DNA from: Candidatus Tayloriibacteriota bacterium
Lineage (GTDB): Bacteria > Patescibacteriota > Minisyncoccia > Phycocordibacterales > UBA10002
Assembly (NCBI GenBank): GCA_009694955.1
Contig: SIBZ01000006.1
Location: 1-35,191, forward strand
Length of the DNA stretch: 35,191 bases
Reading direction: 5' to 3'
The position numbers and the translations under genes were made by a program. Below are positions 502 through 30,452 of the stretch, piece after piece; the first letter of the stretch is position 1; each line of letters opens with the position of its first letter. The notes under the pieces were generated by a model, which saw only the letters and a program-made list of their open reading frames with translations, had not been told where the DNA came from and ran no database searches.

Positions 502-2037
502 GCTCGCAAGTCCACTGATGTCGAGGACAAGCAGGTGTTATCTATCGAAGCGCAACTCACCGAATTGCGGGAGTATGCCAAGCGAGAGAATATCGAAATC
601 TCCGCCGAATTAGTGGAAAAACAATCTGCCAAAGTTCCAGGTCGTCCTATTTTTAATAAACTTCTCAATGACATCGAAAAATTCGGCGGAAGTATTCTCG
701 CATGGCATCCAGATCGTTTAGCCCGCAATTCGGTGGATGGTGGTCGGGTGATTTATCTCCTCGACACAGGGAAACTTGCGAGCCTGAAGTTTCCAACCTT
801 TTGGTGTGATTCCACATCACAAGGTAAATTTATGTTGAACATGGCTTTCGGGCAAAGCAAATACTATGTGGATTCTCTTTCCGAAAATACCAAAAGAGGA
901 CTTCGCCAAAAAGTTAGAATGGGTATATTTCCGAGCCAAGCGCCTTTGGGGTATCTCAACGATTCGAGAACAAAGACAATCGTGGTGGAAAAGAAAAAAT
1001 CTCGTATAGTGCGCTTGGCTTTTGAGAAATACACAAAAGGTAATATGCGATTGGAAGATGTGTCAAACTTTTTGGCGAAATCCGGCGCTACAACAAGAAC
1101 CGGAAAGAGAATCTCAAAAACAAAAGCGTCTTTTATCCTCTCAAATCCTTTTTACATCGGACTATTCAAATATGGTGGTGAAATCCACGAAGGAAAGCAC
1201 GAGCCAATCATTTCAAAGAAACTTTTTGATGAAGCACAGGAAATGTTGAAGTTTCGCGGACAACCCGAACGAAAACCACAGAACGAACCTCAACCATATT
1301 GCGGACTTATTTCCTGTGCTTCATGCGGAATGATGATAACTGCTGAAAACAAAACGAAGCGACAGAAAAATGGTAATGTTCATCACTATGTGTATTACAG
1401 ATGTACCAAGAAATCTAAAACGGTTAGATGTCCCGAAATGTCGCTTCGTTCTGAAAAACTAGATGAGCAGTTATCATCCTTAATCAAAAAAGTTTCTTTG
1501 CCCAAAGACTGGGCGGAGGAATTAAATCGTCTTGCTTTGCAAGACCACAAAAACTCCGCCCCGTCTTTGACTGCTTGTGTGGAAGAAAAAAAGAAAAAGA
1601 TTTCTTCTTTGTCGGAAAAGTTAGAGCGACTTCTTACGGGGTATCTTGACCAAGTAATTGACCAGCCAGACTACTGTTTACAAAAAGCTAAACTGCTTTC
1701 CGAAAAGAAGTCGCTCGAAGAAGAAATCTTTAACTTTTCACACAAGCAGAATGATTGGCTCGCACCTTTCCAAAACTGGCTAAAAGACGCTCAATCATTG
1801 GACAAAATTGCTTCTGATTCAGACCTTTTTGCGAAAAAGGTCTGTGCCAAAGAAATCTTTGGCTCGCACCTGCTTCTTGGCGAAAAAACAATCCGTCCCG
1901 CCGAAGGCGGGAATCCGAATTCATTGGCGAAAACGGACGAAACAGCGTGGGCGTGCCTACGGCACGCCCACTCCTTGGTTGGTTCTCAACCGCTAAGTTC
2001 CATTCTGGTGCCGAGGGAGGGACTTGAACCCTCATGA
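442..2037 (+). CDS. Large serine recombinase (resolvase N-terminal + recombinase + zinc-ribbon + coiled coil); likely start at ATG 481 (MQKFFLYARKSTDVEDKQ)
   Basis: FLYARKSTDVEDKQVLSIEAQ, WHPDRLARN, CxxC...C zinc ribbon (CGLISCASCGMM...YYRCTKK); ends inside the antisense of tRNA-Leu. Confidence 0.9.
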   Translation: MCTSVAIPVPKIYMQKFFLYARKSTDVEDKQVLSIEAQLTELREYAKRENIEISAELVEKQSAKVPGRPIFNKLLNDIEKFGGSILAWHPDRLARNSVDGGRVIYLLDTGKLASLKFPTFWCDSTSQGKFMLNMAFGQSKYYVDSLSENTKRGLRQKVRMGIFPSQAPLGYLNDSRTKTIVVEKKKSRIVRLAFEKYTKGNMRLEDVSNFLAKSGATTRTGKRISKTKASFILSNPFYIGLFKYGGEIHEGKHEPIISKKLFDEAQEMLKFRGQPERKPQNEPQPYCGLISCASCGMMITAENKTKRQKNGNVHHYVYYRCTKKSKTVRCPEMSLRSEKLDEQLSSLIKKVSLPKDWAEELNRLALQDHKNSAPSLTACVEEKKKKISSLSEKLERLLTGYLDQVIDQPDYCLQKAKLLSEKKSLEEEIFNFSHKQNDWLAPFQNWLKDAQSLDKIASDSDLFAKKVCAKEIFGSHLLLGEKTIRPAEGGNPNSLAKTDETAWACLRHAHSLVGSQPLSSILVPREGLEPS

Positions 2038-2092
2038 GATTGCTCTCGCTGCGACCTGAACGCAGTGCGTCTGCCAATTTCGCCACCTCGGC
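2006..2092 (-). tRNA. tRNA-Leu(CAG), CCA encoded
   Basis: GCCGAGGTGGCGAAATTGGCAGACGC...CTGCG-TTCAGGT-CGCAG...GGTTCAAGTCC...CCTCGGCACCA. Confidence 0.93.
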
Positions 2093-2350
2093 AAATTACA
2101 CGGGGTAACTATACCAATTCGCTATCTGCCCGACTAAAAGAGTATAGCTTTTTAGGGCCAATAATCAAACGAGGAGAAATTCATTCAGGTAATGTGAGCG
2201 TGCCAGGACATTCGACTCTTACAGAGTCAGTACCCTGTTTGGATTTTTTCTTCGTTTAAGAAACTCGAAAAAATTCTCAAACAGGCTTCGAGTCCTGGAC
2301 GGAAGCGTCCCACGCTTCCTCACGCCCACACTCCTCACTTCGTTCGCCGG

Positions 2351-4863: not shown

Positions 4864-4915
4864 CTCTACATTTCAATTGTCAAAGACCGCACTCTCTCTT
4901 TGTGAGTGCTGGACT

Positions 4916-4943
4916 ATTATACTTATATAGAGAGCGGTGTCAA
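4916..4943 (-). promoter_or_regulatory. Promoter for 16S: TTGACA-16-TATAAT
   Basis: -35 at 4938-4943 and -10 at 4916-4921, exact consensus hexamers. Confidence 0.8.
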
Positions 4944-4997
4944 ACAAAAAGGAGGCTGTTCTGAACAACCCCCTTCTGAAACCACCTTTTCTGCCTC

Positions 4998-6569
4998 TTA
5001 GCTCAAAAGCGCATATTCTAGGCCGTCAATTAAGGCTTTGAGACTTGCCTTAATGACGTTCGGACCAACACCTATCGTAGTCCATCTACGATGACTCAAC
5101 CGGAACCCGATAAGGACCCTCGTTTTCGCGGCAGAACCAAGGCGATCTTTAATGATCCGGACTTGGTAATCCACCAACTGAACTTGCTTCAATTTAGGGA
5201 AACTGCGAGCGAGAGCTTTACGAAGCGCACTGTCGAGCGCGTTCACCGGCCCGTCACCGTCCGCAACGGCATGAAACTCCTTCTTTCCCATTCTGAGTTT
5301 CACCGTAGCAGTACATTCATCAGACGTACCTGTTGCAGCCAATGAACCGTCCCCTGCAAGTACGACGTTGTACTTTGATACAGTGAATGGCAGCGTACGT
5401 TTTGAAACGGCCTGCCGAAACAAAAGAAACAGTGACGCACCTGCTTCCCGATAACTGTACCCGAGCGCCTCCTGCCGTTTAACCGCATCAAGCACCAAGC
5501 CGAATTTCTCTTTGCGAATCCGAAGACCTAAGTTTTTCGCCATGAGGGCAATGCTGGCTTTTCCTGATTGTCCGCTCACGATAATGGTACTCCTGTTTCC
5601 CACGTGTTCGGGATCAATATGTTGGTAGCTGTTCGCGTTGAGGCCGACTGCATGCGCGTGCCGACCACCGTTGTGGCTGAAGACTAAGTCCCCGAAGAAA
5701 GGACGGCGAGGGTTGCTTTGCATATCGCCAAGTTCATCCACAAACTGTGACAGTTCCGTGAACCTACGAAGTGAACGTGCCGGAAGACAGTGATATCCCA
5801 TTTTCAATTGCAGATTGGCAGCCGCTTCAAGCAAAGACAGATTGGTTCCACGCTCACCGTAACCGTTGATGGTCCCTTGCACCTGCCTCGCCCCTGCTTC
5901 TACCGCCGCAAGAGCGTTGGCCGTTGCAATACCGCAGTCGTTGTGCGGATGAATTCCAACCTCACAGCCGGGAAGTAACTGCACAGCCTCTCGTGTAACC
6001 TTGGCGATTTCCCGAGGAAGTGTGCCACCGTTGGTGTCGCAGAGAATAACTGCCTCCGCTCCGGCTTCCCGAGCCGCACACCACGTTGCGCGAGCATATT
6101 CAGCGTCGTACTTGAATCCATCAAAGCCGTGTTCAGCATCATAGAAGACCGTCCTCCCTTTTGCTCGTAGGTAGGCAACCGTATCCGTAATCATTCGCAG
6201 ATTTTCCTCGGGAGAACAACGAAGCACATTCTGCACCTGCCAAAGCGAGGACTTGCCGTAGATGGTAATAATCGGCGTCTTGGCACGAAGAAGCGCTTGT
6301 ACCTGCGGGTCACTTTCCACTTTCAGATTTTTACCCCCCGTCGAACCAAATGCGGCCACCTTGATACGACTGAATGTGTGTCGAGCTGCAAGGGTAAAGA
6401 ATTCATCGCTTTCCGCATTTGCACCCGGCCATCCCCCTTCGAAGTAGTGGAAGCCCATCGCATCCAAACGTACTGCGAGCTTAAATTTCCTTTTGCCGGG
6501 AAGTTTAAACTCCGCATCTTGCGTCCCATCCCGCCCTGTCACGTCATAGAGTTTGACTAAGATTTTCAT
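4998..6569 (-). CDS. cimA: Citramalate synthase / LeuA-family acyltransferase with C-terminal regulatory domain
   Basis: LYDVTGRDGTQDAEF, HPHNDCGIATANALAAVEAGARQVQGTINGYGERGTN; LeuA-dimer-like C-terminus. Confidence 0.85.
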   Translation of the reverse strand: MKILVKLYDVTGRDGTQDAEFKLPGKRKFKLAVRLDAMGFHYFEGGWPGANAESDEFFTLAARHTFSRIKVAAFGSTGGKNLKVESDPQVQALLRAKTPIITIYGKSSLWQVQNVLRCSPEENLRMITDTVAYLRAKGRTVFYDAEHGFDGFKYDAEYARATWCAAREAGAEAVILCDTNGGTLPREIAKVTREAVQLLPGCEVGIHPHNDCGIATANALAAVEAGARQVQGTINGYGERGTNLSLLEAAANLQLKMGYHCLPARSLRRFTELSQFVDELGDMQSNPRRPFFGDLVFSHNGGRHAHAVGLNANSYQHIDPEHVGNRSTIIVSGQSGKASIALMAKNLGLRIRKEKFGLVLDAVKRQEALGYSYREAGASLFLLFRQAVSKRTLPFTVSKYNVVLAGDGSLAATGTSDECTATVKLRMGKKEFHAVADGDGPVNALDSALRKALARSFPKLKQVQLVDYQVRIIKDRLGSAAKTRVLIGFRLSHRRWTTIGVGPNVIKASLKALIDGLEYALLS

Positions 6570-6653
6570 ATGTAAAAGACCAAACGTCTCTTCTCGTCCC
6601 CTGTTTGCTCAGTACCGTTATTGAATCGTCTCCACACGGAGCATCCATAACGA

Positions 6654-6684
6654 AAAGTGAGCGCTTCGGGGCGAAGAGCTCACT
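6654..6684 (-). terminator. Attenuator terminator of the cimA leader
   Basis: RNA: AAGUGAGCUCUUCGCCCCGAAGCGCUCACUUUU. Confidence 0.8.
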
Positions 6685-6712
6685 TGTATTCGTTTCTTAC
6701 TTTTGGGATTAG

Positions 6713-6793
6713 TTAGAAGCGCGCACGAGCAAAATCTCCACCGGTTGAGCCGGTAATAATAATGCTAATAGCGATAATCGCGCTTTGTGTCAT
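6713..6793 (-). CDS. Leader peptide MTQSAIIAISIIITGSTGGDFARARF (26 aa) upstream of cimA
   Basis: Complete ATG..TAA ORF, Ile-rich (IIAISIII), shared GGDFARA motif, followed by terminator. Confidence 0.8.
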   Translation of the reverse strand: MTQSAIIAISIIITGSTGGDFARARF

Positions 6794-6802
6794 CGTTCTT
6801 GT

Positions 6803-6830
6803 ATCCTACACCCGCCGAGAAAACTGTCAA
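6803..6830 (-). promoter_or_regulatory. Promoter of the cimA leader: TTGACA-16-TAGGAT, ATG 9 nt after the -10
   Basis: -35 6825-6830, -10 6803-6808. Confidence 0.65.
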
Positions 6831-6884
6831 CAAAAAGCCGCCGATTCACGATGAATCGGCGGTGGTGAAAGAACTCTGTGGGAA

Positions 6885-7844
6885 TTACTGTCCCTCAAAC
6901 ATCTGTTCTTCTAGCAAGGAGTGTTCGAGTTTGTCAGGGTCGAACTCGTCTCCTTCGAAGCGTCTGCGACCGCCAAAGAGCCGCGACATTTCGTTGAAGG
7001 CTCGTTTCCATGTGGTGACTTCATCGCACTCGTTCAGAATCTCGGCAACATGATTTATTCTTGCAGCCCTTCTCGGACGAAGCCATACTTCCTTTCGCAC
7101 AGCGGAGATAAAAATGGCGCTCTTGTTCCCGCGAGCCAGCCATACCTCAATGGTAGGAATGGGGCCACAATTTCTGCGCTCCGCGTTCAGGGCGTCCGGA
7201 GTAATATCCTCCTCACCTTGTTTTTTCGCTCTATTTTTCATAAGAGTAGGAAAATGTGCAAAGGTGTTCCAGTAATCACAGAGTAAGAGTTCCGGTTCCG
7301 GATAGAGCGGCTCAAGTTCCCAGTACGTCTGGAATAAGAATGAGAGTGGCTTCTCGTTCCAATTGATTTCTCTCTCGTCATCAAGATTCCAGACATCCAG
7401 GATGACTTTCCCCGCGGCTGTTTTTTCGAGAACAAACACCGCCGCGTATAGGCCATCGGCTATATCGCAAGGGGTATGCCCGATGATGATTCGGTCTCCT
7501 GCTTCGAGCCTAGAGGCGTATTCGATAGCGAACTGCACTCCGACCTGCACGTCGGTGAGGGAAAGCATTTTTTGAACTGCCTGCTTTGTAATCTCTCCAT
7601 ACGTCGGATAGCGAGACCCACTATGTAAGAACCAAATATCCAGCCTTTCAGGAAGGATTATGGCGAATCTTCGCTCATAGATTGGAGGCCTGATAACCAG
7701 TTTCGGTGAACTGATAAGCTTCCGTGAGTCTTCGGTAAGCTCAATAGAATGCTCTGCGAGCTTACCCATGATGGTGAGCGGTAGAAGCGGTTGTACACTT
7801 CCATGCCGAAGCCTTATCGGTAATCCGATTGTTGGTAGTTTCAT
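6885..7844 (-). CDS. Protein of unknown function (319 aa), behind a Leu/Ile/Val-rich leader peptide
   Basis: Long uninterrupted ORF between leuA and cimA; no family recognised. Confidence 0.75.
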   Translation of the reverse strand: MKLPTIGLPIRLRHGSVQPLLPLTIMGKLAEHSIELTEDSRKLISSPKLVIRPPIYERRFAIILPERLDIWFLHSGSRYPTYGEITKQAVQKMLSLTDVQVGVQFAIEYASRLEAGDRIIIGHTPCDIADGLYAAVFVLEKTAAGKVILDVWNLDDEREINWNEKPLSFLFQTYWELEPLYPEPELLLCDYWNTFAHFPTLMKNRAKKQGEEDITPDALNAERRNCGPIPTIEVWLARGNKSAIFISAVRKEVWLRPRRAARINHVAEILNECDEVTTWKRAFNEMSRLFGGRRRFEGDEFDPDKLEHSLLEEQMFEGQ

Positions 7845-7924
7845 TTCCGTTGTTTCGTTGTCAAAGAGCTAACGCTCTTTCATCCCCTATTCCTTTTTCC
7901 TCGCTTCGTTATGAAGTAAAAGAA

Positions 7925-7953
7925 AACCAACTCCCGGGGTGGAGAGTTGGCTT
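7925..7953 (-). terminator. Attenuator terminator of the 319-aa gene
   Basis: RNA: AGCCAACUCUCCACCCCGGGAGUUGGUUUUCUUUU. Confidence 0.8.
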
Positions 7954-7974
7954 TTGCTTACTTAAAACTGTAAT

Positions 7975-8073
7975 TTACTGATTTACATTTTTTAAATATG
8001 CACAGGCAAAATCTCCACCGTTTTTTAGAACGAGGATAATTAGCCCAATCAGATTTTGTATTTTGTTTTGCAT
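7975..8073 (-). CDS. Leader peptide MQNKIQNLIGLIILVLKNGGDFACAYLKNVNQ (32 aa)
   Basis: Complete ATG..TAA ORF, BCAA run LIGLIILVL, GGDFACA motif, terminator downstream. Confidence 0.78.
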   Translation of the reverse strand: MQNKIQNLIGLIILVLKNGGDFACAYLKNVNQ

Positions 8074-8193
8074 ATATTTCCGCATTCTTTTTCGTCCCGA
8101 CAAATCGGAACGAAATTCGATAGAAGAAAAAATCGTATCCAGCAGAGAGTCGCTTGCGCGAACCTCTCTGCCAGACCGATGTGTTTTGTTCCC

Positions 8194-9909
8194 CTATAAC
8201 CCTTTTTCTTTAGATGCGTCAGAACGCCTTATCCTCTCTGCACGATTGAGCGCGCTGAAGGTCGCTTTAACTGCGGCTTGCGTGATGTCTGTGTCTATTC
8301 CGACACCCCACGCGACATCATTCCGATTACGAATCTTCACGTAGGATATAGCCGATGCTTCAGCACCATATCCAAGTGAATGTGTATGATAATCCAAGAC
8401 TTGGAAAGGCACGTACTCATCGAAGGAACGTACCAAAGCCTCAATGGGTCCATTTCCCTCCCCGACAAACTCATGAGGAACGACGTTATTACGGCCACAG
8501 TCTTCCTCAAACCTCACCTTACAGCTTGTTCTGATGCCCGAATCAGTGATGGTAAAGTCTTTAAGCTTCCACGGAAAACGATTATTGCCCTCCAGATAAT
8601 CGTATTCTCCAAGGAACATCGTTTTCAGTTCATCCGAGGTTGCTTCGCACTGTTGTTCGTCAGTGTGTTTTTTGACAAGCAGACTAAACTCTTCGAGAAG
8701 TTCTTTTGGTGGATTAATATGCTCCTGTTCAAGCAGAAATGCCACTCCGCCTTTCCCGGATTGAGCATTGACCCGAATCGAAGTTTGATACTCTCGGCCC
8801 AAATCAGTGGGATTGAATGGAAGATAGGGTACTTCCCATACTTTCTTCTCTCCAGCTTCCCAATCACGTAACCCCTTTCTGATAGCATCTTGGTGTGAAC
8901 CGCTAAATGCGGTGCACACGAGTTTACCGACATAAGGGTGACGCGGATGAATGGGCATTCTGGTACACCGCTGGTACTCCTCGGCAATTGCGGGGAGATT
9001 GTGCAAGTCGAGTTTGGGGTCCACTCCTTGCGTGTACATATTGAGGGCAAGGGTGACGAGGTCGGCATTCCCTGTCCGCTCTCCATTGCCAAACAGAGTT
9101 CCTTCCACCCGCTCCGCACCTGCGAGAAGCGCGAGTTCTGTTGCGGCAATTCCTGTCCCTCTATCATTATGCGTATGCACGCTAATGATAGCGCTCTCAC
9201 GGTTTTCCAGATGTCGGATGAACCACTCGATTTGGTCGGCATATCGGTTCGGTGTTGAAACCTCGACGGTAGCCGGAAGATTGAGAATGATTTTGTTGTC
9301 GGGAGTCGGCTTCCACAAATCCATGACTTGCTGGCAGATGTGCAAAGCGAAGTTGGTCTCCGTAGCGGAAAAGCTCTCGGGAGAATACTCGAGAATGAGT
9401 TCTGTACCACTCACGATTTCCTGATGCTTTTGAATCCACTCTACTCCTCTAGCCGCTATGGATATCGTCTGATGCATGTTGTGATCAAACACGATTCTCC
9501 TTTGCGCGGGCGAAGTCGAATTGTACAAGTGGATTATCGCCCGCCGCGCGCCCACAAGCGATTCAAGAGTTCTGATGATGAGGTCCTCTTTCGCCTGTAC
9601 CAAGACCTGAATAGTCACATTGTCCGGAATTCGCTTCTCCTCAATGAGCTTCCGGCCAAAGTTAAACTCGGTAGGCGATGCTGAAGGAAAGCCGATTTCG
9701 ATTTCCTTAAAACCGCAACTCACCACCGTTTCAAAGAAGTACAACTTGCGAAGAATGTCCATTGGCACCGGAAGCGACTGATTCCCGTCTCGTCCGTCGG
9801 TACTGACCCAGATTGGCGGAACAGTAATTGTCTTATCGGGCCACTTGCGGTCTTTGAGTGTAATAGTTGGTTTGAACGGATGGTATTTTTTCAGTGATTC
9901 AGTATTCAT
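8194..9909 (-). CDS. leuA: 2-isopropylmalate synthase (long LeuA type)
   Basis: PPIWVSTDGRDGNQSLPVPMD, SVHTHNDRGTGIAATELALLAGAERVEGTLFGNGERTGNADLVTLALNMY; 571 aa. Confidence 0.95.
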   Translation of the reverse strand: MNTESLKKYHPFKPTITLKDRKWPDKTITVPPIWVSTDGRDGNQSLPVPMDILRKLYFFETVVSCGFKEIEIGFPSASPTEFNFGRKLIEEKRIPDNVTIQVLVQAKEDLIIRTLESLVGARRAIIHLYNSTSPAQRRIVFDHNMHQTISIAARGVEWIQKHQEIVSGTELILEYSPESFSATETNFALHICQQVMDLWKPTPDNKIILNLPATVEVSTPNRYADQIEWFIRHLENRESAIISVHTHNDRGTGIAATELALLAGAERVEGTLFGNGERTGNADLVTLALNMYTQGVDPKLDLHNLPAIAEEYQRCTRMPIHPRHPYVGKLVCTAFSGSHQDAIRKGLRDWEAGEKKVWEVPYLPFNPTDLGREYQTSIRVNAQSGKGGVAFLLEQEHINPPKELLEEFSLLVKKHTDEQQCEATSDELKTMFLGEYDYLEGNNRFPWKLKDFTITDSGIRTSCKVRFEEDCGRNNVVPHEFVGEGNGPIEALVRSFDEYVPFQVLDYHTHSLGYGAEASAISYVKIRNRNDVAWGVGIDTDITQAAVKATFSALNRAERIRRSDASKEKGL

Positions 9910-9936
9910 TATTTTTTTCGTTTCTGAATTTTCAGT

Positions 9937-11259
9937 TTAGGTTTGTTCTGGTTGTTGAGGCATAAGTCCCGCTGCTATACGAGCAGCTTCCTCCCGAGCA
10001 TTCGTGCCGGGTGTTCCTTTGCATCGGATAACCTCCTGCATAAAGAGACATTGGGTTAACTCCTCTAGGAAACGTTTCCAGAAAAGCTCCGTTCGGTCTC
10101 CCAGAGTGAACGACTCTGCAGGCCACCCACAGATAGTAGGTCCGTTTAGGCTTTCATAGGAAGTCGCAATTGCCTTCGCATAAAGGGAAGCGATTCTGGA
10201 CCAACTATTTTGCAACGCTTCGGCAACCGATGTTTGCAATATATACTTGAAGCGCTCATCTCCACATCGCATCGCCACAGAGAAGTCGAAAGACGGCAGA
10301 TCCGATGTTTCTACAAGCATCAGTGAATCTGCAAGTCCGTACTCAGACGAACGTCGCATGACTTCCCCGCATCTAAAGCGGGGAGAAATAAGTACGACCG
10401 GCCGGCCTATATGCAGCTTCGCAGATCTCTGAAACATCTCGACAGCGGCCTCGGGTGTATCAGCATCATAGGACGTGATGAACTCTGGTGCATGCCAACT
10501 ACGGAGATACTTTGCATAGAGTTTGTTTGCCACGAACATCGGCTGCCTTGGAGTATCGCTCGACTCTAGAATACTTCCTTCTGTGGGACATACAGTGCCC
10601 CCAGTCCCCCGCCACCAAAGGGCAGCGAGCTTAAACTTCCACCCTGGGACCGAGACAAAATCCACTCCCTCGGTCATCAACTGAACCATGTCGGGCAAAC
10701 CAAGGATGATGTCATATTGCGGCAGAGCGGGCGAATACTGTAGTCCTTCTAACGCCGTTTCCGGTGTAATGTTCGAGGTGATAGTAACTCTTCCAAAAGG
10801 ACTAAATGTTCCGGCTAGTATCTGGGCGAAACCTTCCAACATCTCCGAAAGGTAGTGAGGAAGCACTACGATACCAACAGAAACCTTTTGCCGTTTGGTG
10901 ATCGTCGTAAGCGTACCGGCCTGTGCAGCCTTTCGCATACCGACTTCATCTGCTTTACGCAACTCGAAATTAAGAGCTGACTCTACATCAGAATTCAGGA
11001 TCAAGCCTAGGGAGGTACAGACAGATTTAGGTTCCAGACTAAGCAACACAGCTATTCGTGTGAGGGTGCGGACCCATGCACGAATCTGACGGCGAGACAT
11101 AGAGTCCTGTCCGTCTCCCCACGGGAACTTCTTCTCCAAAATCGTTTGGAACGTCTCTGTAGCAATGCGAGCATCTTTTATAAGCTTGTTCCGTCCATGT
11201 GTGTAGGCATATTCCTGTAGCTTCGTGTAGAACTCGGCTTTTTCGACTTGTTCGTTCAT
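9937..11259 (-). CDS. Protein of unknown function (440 aa), apparently co-transcribed with leuA; N-terminal helical/possible HTH region
   Basis: ORF ends 27 nt before leuA start; SRRQIRAWVRTLTRIAVLLSLEPKSVCTSLGL region; KVSVGIVVLPHYLSEMLEGFAQILAG could resemble a substrate-binding fold. Confidence 0.75.
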   Translation of the reverse strand: MNEQVEKAEFYTKLQEYAYTHGRNKLIKDARIATETFQTILEKKFPWGDGQDSMSRRQIRAWVRTLTRIAVLLSLEPKSVCTSLGLILNSDVESALNFELRKADEVGMRKAAQAGTLTTITKRQKVSVGIVVLPHYLSEMLEGFAQILAGTFSPFGRVTITSNITPETALEGLQYSPALPQYDIILGLPDMVQLMTEGVDFVSVPGWKFKLAALWWRGTGGTVCPTEGSILESSDTPRQPMFVANKLYAKYLRSWHAPEFITSYDADTPEAAVEMFQRSAKLHIGRPVVLISPRFRCGEVMRRSSEYGLADSLMLVETSDLPSFDFSVAMRCGDERFKYILQTSVAEALQNSWSRIASLYAKAIATSYESLNGPTICGWPAESFTLGDRTELFWKRFLEELTQCLFMQEVIRCKGTPGTNAREEAARIAAGLMPQQPEQT

Positions 11260-11314
11260 AGCATTTCTTTCGTTGCGGTATTTCTGTAATCGGACATCCG
11301 AATTGTGTAAGGCT

Positions 11315-11400
11315 AAATCAATTCACGGTGAATTGATCGCCCGAATCTGCATATGCAGATTCTAGGGTTATAGGTTTTCAAAGAGCCTAACCCCGATGGT
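11315..11400. repeat. Run of perfect palindromes in the untranslated leader of the 440-aa gene
   Basis: caattcacggtgaattg, gaatctgcatatgcagattc, ctaaccccgatggttag. Confidence 0.7.
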
Positions 11401-11460
11401 TAGCCATACTCTTCTTCGTCCTTCAGGACTGGTTTTGTTCGCTTACTAAAGAAAAACAAA

Positions 11461-11486
11461 ACCAGCGCTTCGGGTGAAGAGCTGGA
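11461..11486 (-). terminator. Attenuator terminator of the 440-aa/leuA operon
   Basis: RNA: CCAGCUCUUCACCCGAAGCGCUGGUUUUGUUUUUC. Confidence 0.8.
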
Positions 11487-11521
11487 TGATAGTTGTAAGT
11501 TACAAGCGAGAAGTTTGTAAG

Positions 11522-11596
11522 TTACCAAACACGAGCCAGCGCTCCACCTTTTTGGAGGGTTAGAAGCGCTAGGTTGTTGTGATTTATCTTTTGCAT
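11522..11596 (-). CDS. Leader peptide MQKINHNNLALLTLQKGGALARVW (24 aa)
   Basis: Complete ATG..TAA ORF, Leu run LALLTL, GGALARV motif, terminator downstream. Confidence 0.8.
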   Translation of the reverse strand: MQKINHNNLALLTLQKGGALARVW

Positions 11597-11635
11597 GATT
11601 TTGAATTAAAGAAATTGATTGAAAAAATAGGTTGC

Positions 11636-11672
11636 CTTGGGAATACTTTTTCGTATATTCCCAAGGCTACCG
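11636..11672 (-). terminator. Intrinsic terminator of the 71-aa ORF
   Basis: RNA: AGCCUUGGGAAUAUACGAAAAAGUAUUCCCAAGGCAACCUAUUUUUU. Confidence 0.85.
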
Positions 11673-11690
11673 TGATACTCTGCGCAAGGC

Positions 11691-11906
11691 CTATGCCAAC
11701 TCCTCGCCAGTAGGCCCGCCTACATATTTCAGTTGTTCCTGCCTGCGTTCAGTCAGCGGTTCTTTTCTTGTGAGACCCTCTGGTTCGGCGGGATTAGGTG
11801 AATCAGTCTTCATAATCTTCGCCAATCGACGGCTGTCGGCGGTGCTTGCTCGCTTGTTGCGTTCATCAATGATCTTCTGATTGTGTGTGCGCTCTTGTGC
11901 ATTCAT
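11691..11906 (-). CDS. Small protein of unknown function (71 aa, MNAQERTHNQKIIDERNKRAS...)
   Basis: ORF between a leader-peptide attenuator and a strong terminator. Confidence 0.55.
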   Translation of the reverse strand: MNAQERTHNQKIIDERNKRASTADSRRLAKIMKTDSPNPAEPEGLTRKEPLTERRQEQLKYVGGPTGEELA

Positions 11907-11971
11907 AAAGAACAAACTCCTTCATCCGCATAGTTTCAACATCGTCTTCGTACGCCCGTACGAAAACAAAA

Positions 11972-12003
11972 AGCCCAGTCCCTGCGGTAGTGGAGACTGG
12001 CTT
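11972..12003 (-). terminator. Attenuator terminator of the 71-aa ORF
   Basis: RNA: AAGCCAGUCUCCACUACCGCAGGGACUGGGCUUUUUGUUUU. Confidence 0.8.
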
Positions 12004-12033
12004 CCTTATGCTTACTATCCTTAGATTGCCTAG

Positions 12034-12120
12034 TTAGGCCTTGTGAGAATAAGCACGAGCAAACGCTCCACTTGTGGTGGATAGCGCTAGACCTAGAAGG
12101 TTTACGTTGCTTGATTGCAT
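12034..12120 (-). CDS. Leader peptide MQSSNVNLLGLALSTTSGAFARAYSHKA (28 aa)
   Basis: Complete ATG..TAA ORF, Leu run LLGLAL, GAFARA motif, consensus promoter and terminator. Confidence 0.8.
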   Translation of the reverse strand: MQSSNVNLLGLALSTTSGAFARAYSHKA

Positions 12121-12129
12121 AGTGTTTTT

Positions 12130-12158
12130 ATACTAATCCACACCCCAAAAGCTGTCAA
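12130..12158 (-). promoter_or_regulatory. Promoter TTGACA-17-TAGTAT with ATG 9 nt after the -10
   Basis: -35 12153-12158, -10 12130-12135. Confidence 0.75.
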
Positions 12159-12167
12159 GCGGGCAAC

Positions 12168-13994
12168 CTAGTGCCTCTCTTTGGTGAGTATGGCTTTGAT
12201 TTCCTTAAATTGCGGGCTTTCTGTTTGATTTTGCGACCACTTTCCCGTTACAAACTCGGGGTCGAAGTAAATGGAGTTTCCGAGCTCCATAAAACGAGAG
12301 TAATCACGTCTGTCGAAATAGGCTCCGAACATTTGCTCAAACAACTTTAAGTCCCGCCTGAAATATATATCAAGCAGTCTTTCAACAGGAATTCTTGATT
12401 CGAGAAGGTCGATGGTTTTAATCGACGCGACATACGCTTGTGCGTCATAGTCGGCTATGCTCATATTCAAATGGTCCTGAAGCGCCAGCTTGTCAAACCA
12501 CTCTGTCATCCCCTCATCAAGGAACGGGGGAAATGTCCCGGGGCCGAACGCGTAGTAATGCAACATCTCATGCATCACGACTTTGAGATAGTCGATGAAA
12601 GAAGCGCTTCCTCCCTCTTTGATATAAATCGTATCGGGAGAGATAAAGACTCCCGCCTCCTCGGTTCCGGTTATCGGGGATTTATCAAGTTTATCCAGCA
12701 CGCTCTGCAGTTCGCGGATACTCTTCTCCCACGATGCGATCGAGGAAGCAATCTCCTGGTTAAAGCGCGGGATATTTGTCCGATTTTCTTCAATAATAGC
12801 TTTATTCCGCTCAAGCTCCTGTATGTTCTTCTCCAATGTCCCTTGCAACTCTTTGCAGTTTGAGATGAGCTCTCTCCCCATCTGGCATTTTTCCTGATAT
12901 TCGCTCTGCAGGTCGGTGACGTATGTGCGATAGTCCGCTTGGTATTTTTCGTCAGTCTGGGAAGTGAGGAGCTTCTCATTACTCGCCCGCATGACAGACG
13001 CGTCGGCAATACTTTGCCTGACCGACACGATGTACTCCCGGATGTTTTTCTTCATCGCTTCCATACGCGTATTCCTGAGTGACACATATAAGTCGGGAGC
13101 ACTCGTAAGAATCGAGGGTGTCTTTTTTGTTAGGTATGTTCCAAAACGAGCGCGGAGGTATCTGTCCGCGAGTACGGGAACAAGCGTGCGCACAACGGGG
13201 ATTGTGGTAGTGCCAATCACAAGCGTGTGGTCAGGAAACCACAGCGCCTCAAATGCTATCGTTTCCAACTGCTTCTCCTGAGCACCGCTCGGATGTTCAA
13301 TGGCGTACGGAACCATAACCGCGCGATACAAGGTGGTGGTAGCGGCAGGGTCAATACCGTGCGCAAGCATTACCGCCGACTCCTTCCCCTCCCAAAACGA
13401 AGGAGCTCCGGAAGTGTCGCGTATCATACGTGCTATGTCATCCAAAGAACGCTCCGACGTGCTATTTACCTTGAAAGCGAGCTGTTCCAGAGCCGTTTGC
13501 GCGTCTTCGTATGCCTGCGCGGTACCGAATTGAGCCACTACAGCGAGTGGGCCGAGAAAGGCAATGCCCCACGCGACCAGAAAAAAGACTTGCGCCACGA
13601 TGAAATACCCCGAAAGCCGGAACCACCGGAATTCGGCTCTCCGGCGGAATATCCGCCAGACAAGCACGAGCTCGAATAGAAGTAGGACTGCAAGTTGCGT
13701 CAAAACTCCTTTTTGAAAACCGGAACTCTCTTCAGCCCGCAAATCCAATTCAAGAAGTTCTGTCACCATCGAAATATGCGAATCGGGGACAATGACGACC
13801 GGAGAAAAATCAGACGTATTGAGGGGTATCCACAATGAATACGCCGCGACACTTCCAATGGCCAGAAGGAGAACGAATAAGACGCACGCGTACACCACAT
13901 TGCGGAGCGAAAAGACGAGCCGAGTAGGCTTAGGGACCTCAACCGGAATAGCAACCGGCGGTACTGCTTCAATAGAAGCGTTTGGCTCTTCCAT
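12168..13994 (-). CDS. Membrane-anchored protein with coiled coil and HExxH metallopeptidase-like motif
   Basis: N-terminal TM segments; VVMHEMLHYYAFGPGTFPPFLDEGMTEWFDKLA (HEMLH...E). Confidence 0.75.
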   Translation of the reverse strand: MEEPNASIEAVPPVAIPVEVPKPTRLVFSLRNVVYACVLFVLLLAIGSVAAYSLWIPLNTSDFSPVVIVPDSHISMVTELLELDLRAEESSGFQKGVLTQLAVLLLFELVLVWRIFRRRAEFRWFRLSGYFIVAQVFFLVAWGIAFLGPLAVVAQFGTAQAYEDAQTALEQLAFKVNSTSERSLDDIARMIRDTSGAPSFWEGKESAVMLAHGIDPAATTTLYRAVMVPYAIEHPSGAQEKQLETIAFEALWFPDHTLVIGTTTIPVVRTLVPVLADRYLRARFGTYLTKKTPSILTSAPDLYVSLRNTRMEAMKKNIREYIVSVRQSIADASVMRASNEKLLTSQTDEKYQADYRTYVTDLQSEYQEKCQMGRELISNCKELQGTLEKNIQELERNKAIIEENRTNIPRFNQEIASSIASWEKSIRELQSVLDKLDKSPITGTEEAGVFISPDTIYIKEGGSASFIDYLKVVMHEMLHYYAFGPGTFPPFLDEGMTEWFDKLALQDHLNMSIADYDAQAYVASIKTIDLLESRIPVERLLDIYFRRDLKLFEQMFGAYFDRRDYSRFMELGNSIYFDPEFVTGKWSQNQTESPQFKEIKAILTKERH

Positions 13995-26049: not shown

Positions 26050-26690
26050 CCAAAAATCCTAAATCCATTATCCAGTCTTCAAGATTGCATCCGCCTAAAT
26101 TTGCAAAGCAAATTTGTGCGGATAAACAGATATCAATGTTCACATGGCTCTCTCGCGAATCGCAAAGCGTGAAGCGCATAACGTCAGAAAATTCTGGCGA
26201 TACACGTTGCGCGTTTTACGATACACGTAAAGATTCCATGGAGCAGGATTAATTTTCGTAGTTTACCCACATCCGCTGTTACCAGCGAACGGGGGCTTAC
26301 AAGTTTCCCGACAGGATCGACCAATTAGTATGCCTCGGCTAAACAGATTACTCTGCGTACACCTAGCACCTATCAACCTAGTCATCTCCTAGGGGTCTAT
26401 AACGATTCCTCATCTTAGGGACGGTTTCCCGCTTAGATGCTTTCAGCGGTTATCCGGTCCGAACATAGCTACCCTGCGGTGCCCTTGGCAGGACAGCAGG
26501 TACACCAGAGGTCCGTTCGTTCTGGTCCTCTCGTACTAAGAACGAAGCCCTTCAAGAATCAACGCCTGCAGCAGATAGGAGACCAACCTGTTTTACAACG
26601 GTCTGAACCCAGCTCACGTACCACTTTAATTGGCGAACAGCCAAACCCTTGGGACCTTCTCCAGCCCCGGGATGTGGTGAGCCGACATCG

Positions 26691-27134
26691 CTGTCGGTCA
26701 AATTTGTCTGCGATTACTCGCAGGATCGGACTATATCTTCATCCTTCTCAACAGATTGTTGAATGAGGAGTTTGGCGTGTTAGCTTCCCCCTTACTGAGG
26801 GAAACTCCGCGTCTCACAAACGCAAGTCTCTACGGGGTCGTGAACTTCATTGAGAAGGCAAACAGATTGTTTACCCATGTGTAGGAAAGCAGGGGTTGTA
26901 CCCTGAGCAACGTCGGGTGTTGCCTTTACCTCCCCAGAACATCTCTTTCATCTCTCAACAAAGAACTTCTCAATGAAGTTCACGACTTCCCACGGTATCG
27001 TCCTCGGAACACATTGTTCCGTAGGAGTTCACCGTTATAAGCCAAATTTTTTGATCCCTGTATATGTGGGTTCATTGGTCTCACATATACAGAGACGACT
27101 AATGCTCTTTCGAGCATGGCACCCCGATTTGTTA
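26691..27134 (-). ncRNA. Group I intron in 23S (L2500-type), 444 nt, no endonuclease ORF
   Basis: Excision restores GGCACCU|CGAUGUCGGC; P1 GGCACCU with IGS GGGGUGCC (U.G at splice site); R segment GUAGAGACUUGCG and P7 AAGAUAUAGUCC; terminal G. Confidence 0.9.
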
Positions 27135-27703
27135 AGGTGCCGAACTCCGCCGTCGATATGGACTCTTAGGCGGAACTAGCCTGTTATCCCCGGAGTAGCT
27201 TTTAGCAGATAATCTTCCACCGCATCTAATGCGAATGGTCGGTTCACTATGCCCCGCTTTCGCGTCTGCTCGACACTTACGTCTTACAGTTAGGCTCTCT
27301 TATGCCATTGCACTATCGGCACGGTTTCCATTCGCGCCTAGAGAACCTTGATGGACCCCTCCGTTACTCTTTAGGAGGGTAGCGCCCCACTAAAACTGCC
27401 CGCCAGGTACTGTCTCTTAACGTTTTTGCCGTCAAGGTTAGCATGTATATTCTTAAAGGATGGTGTTTCATCGACGGATCCACGTCAACCGAGATCAACG
27501 CTTCAAATCCTACCATCTACGCTACGCATCAAGAACATACAGGCAATACCAAGTTGCAGTAAAGCTTCCGGGGTCTTTTCGTCTAGCTGCAGGTAACCGG
27601 CATCTTCACCGGTATTGTATTTTCACCGAACGGGTCTCCGAGACAGTTGCCCAGACGTTACACTATTCAACGCGTCGGAACTTACCCGACAAGGAATTGC
27701 GCT

Positions 27704-27890
27704 CTTCTATTCCTTACGAAGGACTATGTCTTCACCCGAACATTTTTTGCAAAATGTTGTAGGGGCATGGCGTATAGTCTCTTGGAGCCATGTGTACTCT
27801 CCGTGTTACCACGAAGTAAGGTAGCGTGTGCGTTTTCATGTCGAACTCTAATCGTCCCAATCCTTCCCTTACTCTTTGCAGAGTAAGGAA
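27704..27890 (-). ncRNA. Mini group I intron in 23S (L1931-type), 187 nt
   Basis: Excision restores GUCCUAAGGU|AGCGCAAUUCC; R segment CAAGAGACUAUACG, P7 GAAGACAUAGUCC, P8 AACAUUUU-GCAA-AAAAUGUU; terminal G. Confidence 0.87.
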
Positions 27891-29291
27891 ACCTTAGGAC
27901 GATTATAGTTATCGCCGACATTCACCAGGGCTTATAACAGTCAGCTTCTCCCTGCCTTGCGGCAGAGAGAAACCGCCGTTATTTGACCTTCTGGCATTGG
28001 TCAAGTGTCACCCCCTATACATCCTCTTACGAGTTCGCAGGGAGCTGTGTTTTTGATAAACAGTCGCCAGGCAGACTTTAGCTGCGGCCTTTCTTGCGAA
28101 AGGCAGGCCTTATCCCGAAGTTACGGCCGCTTTTTTGCCGAGTTCCTTGGAGACCTCTCATTCGTTCGCCTTGCTCTACTCGAGCTGACTACCTGTGTCG
28201 GTTTACGGTACGGTCAAGTCGCGTTTAATCTTAGAAGTTTTTCTTGGAAGTCTGATTTGCCATATTTACCGGCTTTCGCCGACATTTTCTCTGCTCCTTT
28301 GATTCACCATTAAAGGCATATTCCCGGATTTACCTGGGAATAATCTTCGAGCCAAGAACGTCAAATCCAATAATGCGCACGGCATACTCGACTTCGTCAC
28401 TCCATCGAAACGCGCCTCGGTCATGGAATATTAACCATGTGTCCATCAGGTGCGGCTTTCGCCATCCCCTTAGGCCCGACTAACCCTCCTCTGACAATCA
28501 TCGAGGAGGAAACCTTAGTCTTTCGGCGTGCGGGTTTCTCACCCGCATTGTGGTTACTTGTGCCAACATTCTTACTTCGCAACGCTCCACCATGGGTCAC
28601 CCCTTTGGCTTCACTGCAGATGCGAATACTCTCCTACCGCATTGGTATATCCGAAGATATACCAAGCCCTCAGTTTCGGTACTGCGCTTAACCCCGATCA
28701 TCTTCGGTGCAGAATCTCTCGATGAGTGAGCTGTTACGCTTTCTTTCAATGATGGCTGCTTCTAAGCCTACATCCTCATTGTCTAAGAAATTCCACTTCC
28801 TTGTGATGTACTGAGCGCAGATTTTGGGACCTTAACTGGAGATCAAAGGCTCTTCCCTTTTTGACCTTTGGAGCTTAGCCCCCACGGTCTAACTGCCGTG
28901 CTTAACTCATTGGTATTCGAAGTTTGATTGGTCTAACGGTATTTCTACCTATTTAGACCATCCAGAGCTCTACCCCCAAGAGGAACACACGACGCTAGCC
29001 CTAAAGCTATTTCGGAGAGAACCAGCTATTACCAGATTCGATTAGCTTATCACTCCTTACCACAAGTCATCGAAGAGTATTGCACAGCTCTATCGTTCGG
29101 ACCTCCCCAAGACTTTCGTCTTGGTTCATCCTGCTCATGGTAAGCTCATCTGGCTTCGGGTCTGATGAATACTACTTGTCGCGCTATTAACACTCGGTTT
29201 CCCTACGGCTCCACCCTGAAAGGGCTTAGCCTTGCAGTATGCATCAACTCGTTGGCTCATTCTTCAATAGGCACGCCACCACGGATGCAAC

Positions 29292-29390
29292 GCGCAAGTT
29301 ATAAAGTTCATAAAGTTGAAAGTTCATAAAGCAGAGCGTCTTGTCTACTTTACAGACTTTAAAAACTTTTTACTTTACAAACTGTGTGCT
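29292..29390 (-). ncRNA. AT-rich insertion in 23S near helix 25 (candidate intervening sequence)
   Basis: caagttataaagttcataaagttgaaagttcataaag pairs imperfectly with ctttacagactttaaaaactttttactttacaaactg. Confidence 0.6.
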
Positions 29391-29454
29391 GCACCCGCTA
29401 TGACTCCTTGTAAGCATATGGTTTCAGGTCTATTTCACCGCCCTCACCGGGCTG

Positions 29455-29494
<40 letters not shown>

Positions 29495-30452
29495 TTAAGA
29501 AGTATTTAGCCTTGCCGGTTAGTTCCGGCGGGTTCCCTCAAGCTATTCGTGTCTTGAGGTACTCAAGAACAGCAACAAGAAAGACTGTTTGTTTTCGTGT
29601 ACGGGACTATCACCCACTGGGGTGTCGCTTTCCAGCAACTTCCACTAACAAACAATTTGGTAACTTTCCTCGTATAAATACGACGTCACTGCCTTACAAC
29701 CCCGAGTTTTTCTTGCGAAAAATTCGGTTTGGGCTTCTCCGCGTTCGCTCGCCGCTACTGACGGAATACTTATTGGTTTCTACTCCTCCTGGTACTGAAA
29801 TGTTTTACTTCCCAGGGTACGCTCCCCGGCTTGCGCCAGAGTCTCTGCGTTTTACGCAGAGGGGTTTCCCCATTCGGACATCTTCGGATCAAAGGTTGCT
29901 CGGCACCTCCCCGAAGCGTATCGCCGCCACGCTACGTCCTTCATCGCCTTCTTAAGCCAAGGCATCCACCATACGCCCTTGTTTCCCATCAGGAAACTTA
30001 TATACCCGCTCCGACTTACAATCAGAGTGGGTAAACCACTTAATTAATCCTGCTCCATAGAATCTATGAAGCAATGTATCTGTTGTATCCTCACCTATCT
30101 CTCAATAGGTTTGGATACGCCCAAATGGACTCTTGAACATCCATTTGAGTTTGTTCTCGCAAACGTTACTCACGTTTGTCCAAACGTCCGACTCCGAAGC
30201 TAAAAGACCCCTGAATCTATGCCTAAAGAAACATAGACCCAAAAGCGCTTCGTGACGGGATGGAGTTTTCAAAGTGTCAGTCGTTCCGAATTTCGACCGT
30301 TCTGTGTCCGCGGGAACGAATGAAATTCACTCATTCCCGTAAAAACAGAAACCCCGCCTTTCAAGCGGGACTCACTAAATACGCAAAATGGCTCTGCGTC
30401 TAGGTTTTCCGCTGTGAAATTAGGGTGATTTTTGACATCGGTTGTAGCGGTA

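Follow-up and report, generated by a model that had tools for sequence, protein, structure and literature searches.

The stretch at 6648-6830 (-) is very probably an isoleucine-responsive, ribosome-mediated transcription attenuator of the citramalate synthase gene cimA, and we put the probability of this reading at roughly 0.87. It lies in the 35,191-nucleotide stretch of DNA that was analysed as a whole, hereafter the window. The features that carry this reading are a leader ORF, runs of regulatory codons, a promoter, an intrinsic terminator, alternative RNA pairing, covariation among relatives, and a partition of leader codons according to the downstream gene (positions in Table 1). The leaders form an apparently undescribed family of amino-acid switches, in which the response to Leu, Ile or Phe would be set by the codons. 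Searches of an open-access library found nothing relevant on attenuators or 2-isopropylmalate synthase in Patescibacteria/Candidate Phyla Radiation, nor on cimA attenuation.

Table 1. Positions of the leaders, their RNA parts and the neighbouring genes in the window.
Feature	Position	Strand	Details
L4, MQSSNVNLLGLALSTTSGAFARAYSHKA (starts MQSSNVNLLGLALS), Leu-rich	12034..12120	(-)	before 74-aa ORF; promoter TTGACA-17-TAGTAT 9 nt upstream
L4 region 2, AGTGGAG	12066-12072	(-)	
L4 region 3, CTCCACT	11989-11995	(-)	compensatory A-U
L4 terminator	11975-12000	(-)	
L3, MQKINHNNLALLTLQKGGALARVW (starts MQKINHNNLALLTLQ), Leu-rich	11522..11596	(-)	upstream of 440-aa ORF and leuA; region 2 11542-11548, region 3 11473-11479, terminator 11462-11485
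440-aa protein between L3 and leuA	9937..11259	(-)	no Pfam/NCBIfam match
leuA, 2-isopropylmalate synthase (NF002991)	8194..9909	(-)	754.9 bits, cutoff 455
L2, MQNKIQNLIGLIILVLKNGGDFACAYLKNVNQ (starts MQNKIQNLIGLIILVLK), mixed Ile/Leu	7975..8073	(-)	before 319-aa ORF; region 2 8013-8019, region 3 7938-7944, terminator 7923-7954
319-aa protein downstream of L2	6885..7844	(-)	no Pfam/NCBIfam match
Terminator closing upstream 319-aa unit	6838..6862	(-)	
Promoter of leader-cimA unit, TTGACA-16-TAGGAT	6803..6830	(-)	9 nt 5' of leader ATG; consensus scan
L1, leader peptide ORF MTQSAIIAISIIITGSTGGDFARARF, 26 aa	6713-6793	(-)	upstream of cimA
L1 regulatory codon run IIAISIII, 6 Ile/8 codons	6755..6778	(-)	
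L1 region 1, 5' arm of 1:2 hairpin	6750..6755	(-)	pairs with 6739-6744; fold -11.8 kcal/mol
L1 region 2, GGTGGAG, conserved core	6736..6742	(-)	5' arm of antiterminator, inside leader ORF; shared by the 71 leaders and covarying with region 3
L1 conserved continuation ATTTTGCTCGTG after core	6724..6735	(-)	column counts; YGTG kept even where leader reads another frame
L1 region 3, CTTCGCC	6670..6676	(-)	complementary to region 2; within terminator 5' arm and loop
L1 intrinsic terminator AGTGAGCTCTTCGCCCCGAAGCGCTCACT then TTTCGTTA	6648..6684	(-)	stem-loop 6656-6684 and T-rich tail, before cimA
cimA, citramalate synthase family (TIGR00977)	4998..6569	(-)	541.5 bits, curated cutoff 450

Codons 6-13 of L1 read ATT ATC GCT ATT AGC ATT ATT ATT, and the whole peptide contains no Leu. 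Ile accounts for 6.5% of residues in the longer proteins of the window, and a simulation gave a probability of about 3e-5 for at least six Ile within any eight-codon stretch of a peptide of this length. The same density was not reached anywhere in 6,925 aa of real proteins, and L1 was the sole frame to reach it among 1,147 short stop-to-stop frames of the window. A chance ORF was ruled out on these statistics.

On the minus strand the order is L4 (Leu), the 74-aa ORF, L3 (Leu), the 440-aa ORF, leuA, L2 (Ile/Leu), the 319-aa ORF, a terminator, L1 (Ile) and cimA. The sequence-only reading of this DNA had described a cimA leader that lacks Leu and has Ile at six of eight consecutive codons, as was confirmed for L1. 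It had called the leaders of leuA and of a "71-aa" ORF Leu-rich, which is true of L3 and L4, although the ORF actually has 74 aa; the mixed leader L2 is a fourth copy in the window that was absent from it. Its cimA assignment was borne out by the TIGR00977 score (Table 1) and by the alignment, in which the RDG, HxH and GERxxN motifs and the catalytic His of the linker domain are all retained. Every IPMS equivalog model scores far under its own cutoff. When named genomes were scanned once, the nearest named relatives of the window CimA proved to be just 38-46% identical. Of the relatives in the initial search, which covered 147 genomes, 1 has a full cimA.

The product of the 74-aa ORF had no match in Pfam or NCBIfam, and no homologues of the 319-aa, 440-aa and 74-aa proteins were seen in the relatives' loci retrieved. 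The predicted structures of the 319-aa (pLDDT 39) and 440-aa (pLDDT 35) proteins were too poor for use. Elsewhere in the window, a 23S rRNA match at 26306-29992 (-) is 3,687 bases long, whereas the model has 2,925 positions; the gene therefore carries large insertions, possibly introns.

In the L1 RNA, the terminator and the antiterminator GGUGGAG:CUUCGCC are mutually exclusive. When the RNA was folded as ending at region 3, the antiterminator formed in all four window leaders (L1: -23.7 kcal/mol). The complete RNA folded into the terminator in L1, L2 and L4, and for L3 the antiterminator was the full-length MFE structure. All four leaders share the core [AG]GTGGAG-n3-T-n-GC[TC][CT]GTG. Positions 7 and 17 of the core are G and position 16 is a pyrimidine, in agreement with G(-10)Y(-1)G(+1), the pattern known for RNA polymerase pausing. 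The ATTTTGCTCGTG segment is a possible pause element, and a pause at the core, if real, would aid coupling between ribosome and polymerase. The host genome holds four copies of the element, all within the window; an exact match to the core pattern in host contig C36 falls within the coding sequence of an ftsB-like gene and was discarded as chance.

With a covariance model built from seven leaders (E up to 0.05), 397 genomes of the same order were searched, and 50 of them contain the element. Genome sizes across the order, 0.4-1.2 Mb, suggest small-genome, Patescibacteria-like bacteria. Beyond the order, evenly drawn samples gave matches in three genomes of the class and in one genome of the phylum outside the class, the latter being a Leu leader (MHQAIQQANLLLGLLLLSPSGGRFACA). 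A curated set of 71 leaders was extracted from the matches. Sorted by rule, 39 are rich in Leu, 16 in Ile and 4 in Phe; the other 12 include some misassigned frames. The first pattern match in G102 (L068) looked like a chance palindrome; at that site the covariance model identifies a genuine Leu leader, but on the other strand.

Pairing between regions 2 and 3 is maintained where the sequence varies. In 27 leaders region 2 is not GGTGGAG; the pairing of each with its own region 3 gave a score of 140.6, a value that none of 5,000 permutations reached (mean 99.9, sd 6.4). The 2:3 pairing is part of the search model, which somewhat favours paired matches, but the terminator arms were located independently of region 2. 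The compensatory region 2/3 pairs include TCTGGAG/CTCCAGA, GGTTGAG/CTCAACC and AGTGGAG/CTCCACT, and GGTCGAG/CTCGATC is another example of such pairing. Support for the 1:2 hairpin across the family is modest (0.706 vs 0.649 shuffled, p=9e-4). A tandem pair of Phe leaders, MKSATNTETFFFSNTMNMSGVFACI and MTRQTAALFFFLTTKPLSVEV, stands before a prephenate dehydratase gene in G001 (L147, 6340-6020 (-)), and the first of them has GTGGGG opposite CCCCGC, an apparent compensatory change.

A terminator-like hairpin followed by a T-rich tail was found downstream of all 71 curated leaders. This bears on translational attenuation, in which a ribosome-binding site would be freed instead of termination being relieved. 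The Shine-Dalgarno-like GGAG of region 2 does stand 9 nt before a conserved GTG in 57 of the 71 leaders and might make a second start site with it, but the mini-ORFs opening at this GTG are mostly tiny and variable in length. Furthermore, region 3 of L1 lies about 100 nt upstream of the cimA start, and no structure was seen linking the two. With a terminator at every leader, such translational control is very unlikely, and we retain transcription attenuation as the reading.

The leaders themselves are probably translated without a leader. TTGAC occurs 20-40 nt 5' of the start in 51 of 71 leaders, against 1.2 expected from shuffles, and in most leaders a sigma-70-like promoter ends 6-9 nt before the start codon. 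At the usual start-site spacing the mRNA would thus start at or next to the ATG. Only 11 of the 71 carry a Shine-Dalgarno-like 4-mer. L1 fits this description: it has no Shine-Dalgarno sequence, its ATG is at or adjoining the predicted transcript start, and it is probably leaderless or nearly so.

Many leaders end in the recurrent peptide tail GG[DGA][FL]A[RC][VA]. Such a tail could act as an arrest peptide, with GG-x-(F/L)-A-R stalling the ribosome alone or with a ligand and the Ile run being incidental. However, the tail nucleotides are out of frame or interrupted by a stop in eight or more leaders, among them the leuA leader of G081, the prephenate dehydratase leader of G001, and those of G157, G198, G014, G080, G191 and G644. 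These leaders keep the nucleotides without the peptide, and selection therefore acts on the nucleic acid. The codon runs, moreover, follow the downstream gene. An arrest peptide was rejected on the frame evidence and is highly improbable; stalling within the codon run itself is the preferred reading.

Leader codon content was compared with the downstream gene, defined as the next recognisable enzyme without an intervening leader and assigned by family models and BLAST. Leu predominates in each of the nine leaders that precede LeuA, which together have 51 Leu and 6 Ile codons ahead of region 2. Ile predominates in each of the nine whose downstream enzyme is CimA, a CimA-type regulatory domain or IlvA (in some cases with RidA in between), where the totals are 53 Ile and 1 Leu. 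The one-sided Fisher test of this partition gives p=2.1e-5, for loci that are not fully independent by descent and that come from about six families of the order on each side. Five genomes (G000, G007, G019, G081 and G153) hold both kinds of leader, which differ as expected. The genes behind Ile leaders include ilvA and ridA-ilvA-ilvB, and a Phe copy precedes prephenate dehydratase.

This comparison between cimA-type and leuA leaders in relatives is the check that the sequence-only reading had put forward, and it came out in its favour. Attenuation, which it had also proposed, is supported by the covarying alternative RNA structures together with the codon partition; codon content alone is consistent with it and is no proof. 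Its further claim, that leader residues match the end product of the pathway, holds as a partition between codons and genes. It should not be taken literally as a pathway, and the end-product reading is incomplete, because the remaining Ile/Leu enzymes IlvC, IlvD, LeuC and LeuB were not recognisable in the host genome and in 16-17 of 17 relatives.

The conserved RNA core and terminator would also suit a riboswitch or T-box, that is, a ligand- or tRNA-binding leader RNA with the small ORF as a by-product. Rfam had no family matching the leader region at gathering score, and a search of 4900-12300 with E up to 1 returned nothing except two sub-threshold eukaryotic RNAs, and no T-box. The amino-acid content of the ORF follows the regulated gene, and start codons and promoters are conserved in position; both observations argue against a by-product. 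A ligand- or tRNA-binding leader is the least probable of the alternatives considered here, and a translated leader that reports on its own codons remains our interpretation.

Several leaders depart from the simple Leu, Ile or Phe types. Leaders before M20 peptidase genes (G005 L141 ~1434-1599 (+), G006 L146 ~6200-6038 (-), G202 L152 ~6300 (-)) occur in two different families of the order and carry one or two codons each of many amino acids, e.g. TGVMYFWHLIRKT, as if sensing a shortage of any of about ten amino acids together. Val- and Ile-rich leaders (MQRIRKHSVVIIVTS and MKQARTIKVVSVIVIS) were found in G152 (L125) and G225 (L132) before genes without assigned function. An Ile leader in G008 (L105, ~1963-2140 (+)) has its codon run split by the in-frame insert SASEDRRGSFLAYMASERRRN.

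Two Ile leaders are followed by a LeuA_dimer (CimA regulatory) domain that stands alone, with no catalytic domain attached (L128:3659-4216 in G007, L102:2463-3059 in G060). Small proteins (75-113 aa) for which Pfam gave no credible match lie behind Leu leaders (L101:6320-6625, L110:1847-2071, L126:1654-1947) and behind Ile leaders (L101:5672-6010, L109:1669-1989, L105:2283-2612). The small proteins behind Leu leaders form one BLAST cluster and by eye resemble the C-terminal half of the LeuA regulatory domain.

The other enzymes of the Ile and Leu pathways were searched in the host and 17 relatives. IlvC and IlvD were found in 0 of these 18 genomes, and an aconitase-family (LeuC-type) gene and a LeuB-type gene in one each, both in G002, with the host genome 88.6% complete and most relatives near complete. 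The controls were detected in 14 of 14 known genomes. LeuA and CimA thus appear to be orphan first-step enzymes in the host and nearly all relatives tested, since IlvC, IlvD, LeuC and LeuB are not recognisable.

These absences, and the relatives that retain the CimA regulatory domain only, would suit a decaying relic in which cimA and leuA are orphaned and their regulation no longer matters. Against this, codon runs, promoters, pairing and terminators are maintained across many families, and the cimA and leuA frames are intact with family-level scores, the CimA catalytic motifs included. A relic is accordingly unlikely. For Leu or Ile supply, the regulated genes may serve a route through unrecognised enzymes, an exchange of intermediates with partners or another role, or they may be decaying. 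The question raised is why starvation-controlled LeuA, CimA and bare CimA regulatory domains persist without recognisable IlvC, IlvD, LeuC and LeuB.

The element is best described as a new form of ribosome-mediated transcription attenuation, and from its architecture we infer that ribosomes stall, that the RNA switches structure, in which direction the response runs, and that initiation is leaderless. Transcription would begin at the leader ATG or immediately upstream of it, with a ribosome translating the Ile-rich peptide close behind the RNA polymerase. With ample charged tRNA-Ile, the ribosome would cross region 2 (GGUGGAG) and reach the stop codon; region 2 would be masked or refolded with region 1, the terminator (3:4) would form, and cimA would be off. 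The L1 stop codon lies 27 nt beyond region 2, so a ribosome parked there may not cover region 2, and the model therefore relies on the 1:2 hairpin. With scarce charged tRNA-Ile, the ribosome would stall in the Ile codons. Region 2 could then pair with region 3 (GGUGGAG:CUUCGCC, extended by GCUC:GAGC), no terminator would form, and cimA would be transcribed. The same RNA scaffold with other codon runs would serve other genes: Leu for leuA; Ile for ilvA, ridA-ilvA-ilvB and CimA-type regulatory domains; and Phe for prephenate dehydratase.

A broader proposal is offered tentatively, at somewhat less than even odds. The element may be a leaderless attenuator that travels as a cassette: its RNA core is conserved, and codons alone re-tune it to Leu, Ile, Phe or, before M20 peptidases, about ten amino acids. 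In amino-acid-auxotrophic bacteria with small genomes it would sense starvation and drive genes outside complete pathways, including orphan LeuA and CimA and CimA regulatory domains that stand alone. Little is known of how such bacteria regulate their genes, and the leader is a candidate for a defined amino-acid starvation switch. The natural specificity variants on one scaffold also offer a clean series for how codon runs set attenuator specificity.

The trp, his, leu and ilvGMEDA attenuators of E. coli combine a short ORF rich in regulatory codons, mutually exclusive 1:2, 2:3 and 3:4 pairings, an intrinsic terminator and a biosynthetic gene downstream. L1 resembles them in its codon-rich ORF, alternative pairings, intrinsic terminator and downstream biosynthetic gene. 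Unlike in those systems, region 2 is here part of the leader ORF, and its sequence is kept even between leaders that respond to different amino acids by codon content. A further difference is that the leader here is probably leaderless, and that it stands before cimA and orphan genes in small-genome bacteria.

In Actinobacteria, the accessible part of one study describes candidate ilvB, leuA and leuS leaders with Ile/Val/Leu or Leu runs before branched-chain amino acid (BCAA) genes, and a LEU element that is a pseudoknot tied to the leuA Shine-Dalgarno sequence (PMC1262725). The leader peptides with BCAA codon runs are alike; unlike the LEU element, the system here has an intrinsic terminator and a GGUGGAG:CUYCACC antiterminator, and that part of the study contains no cimA case among its leaders (PMC1262725). 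The uORF of the Corynebacterium ilvB-II motif, as far as the available text of its report goes, is a conserved leader ORF and RNA motif controlling a BCAA gene (PMC10272879). It shares this conservation of ORF and RNA with the window element, which has no Rfam match, and differs in lineage and gene. For the S. aureus BCAA operon, the available portion of the source describes a Leu-rich attenuator peptide through whose codon content starvation is sensed (PMC5794164). The sensing of BCAA codons is alike in the two systems, while separate Ile and Leu copies of a single element are present here at one locus.
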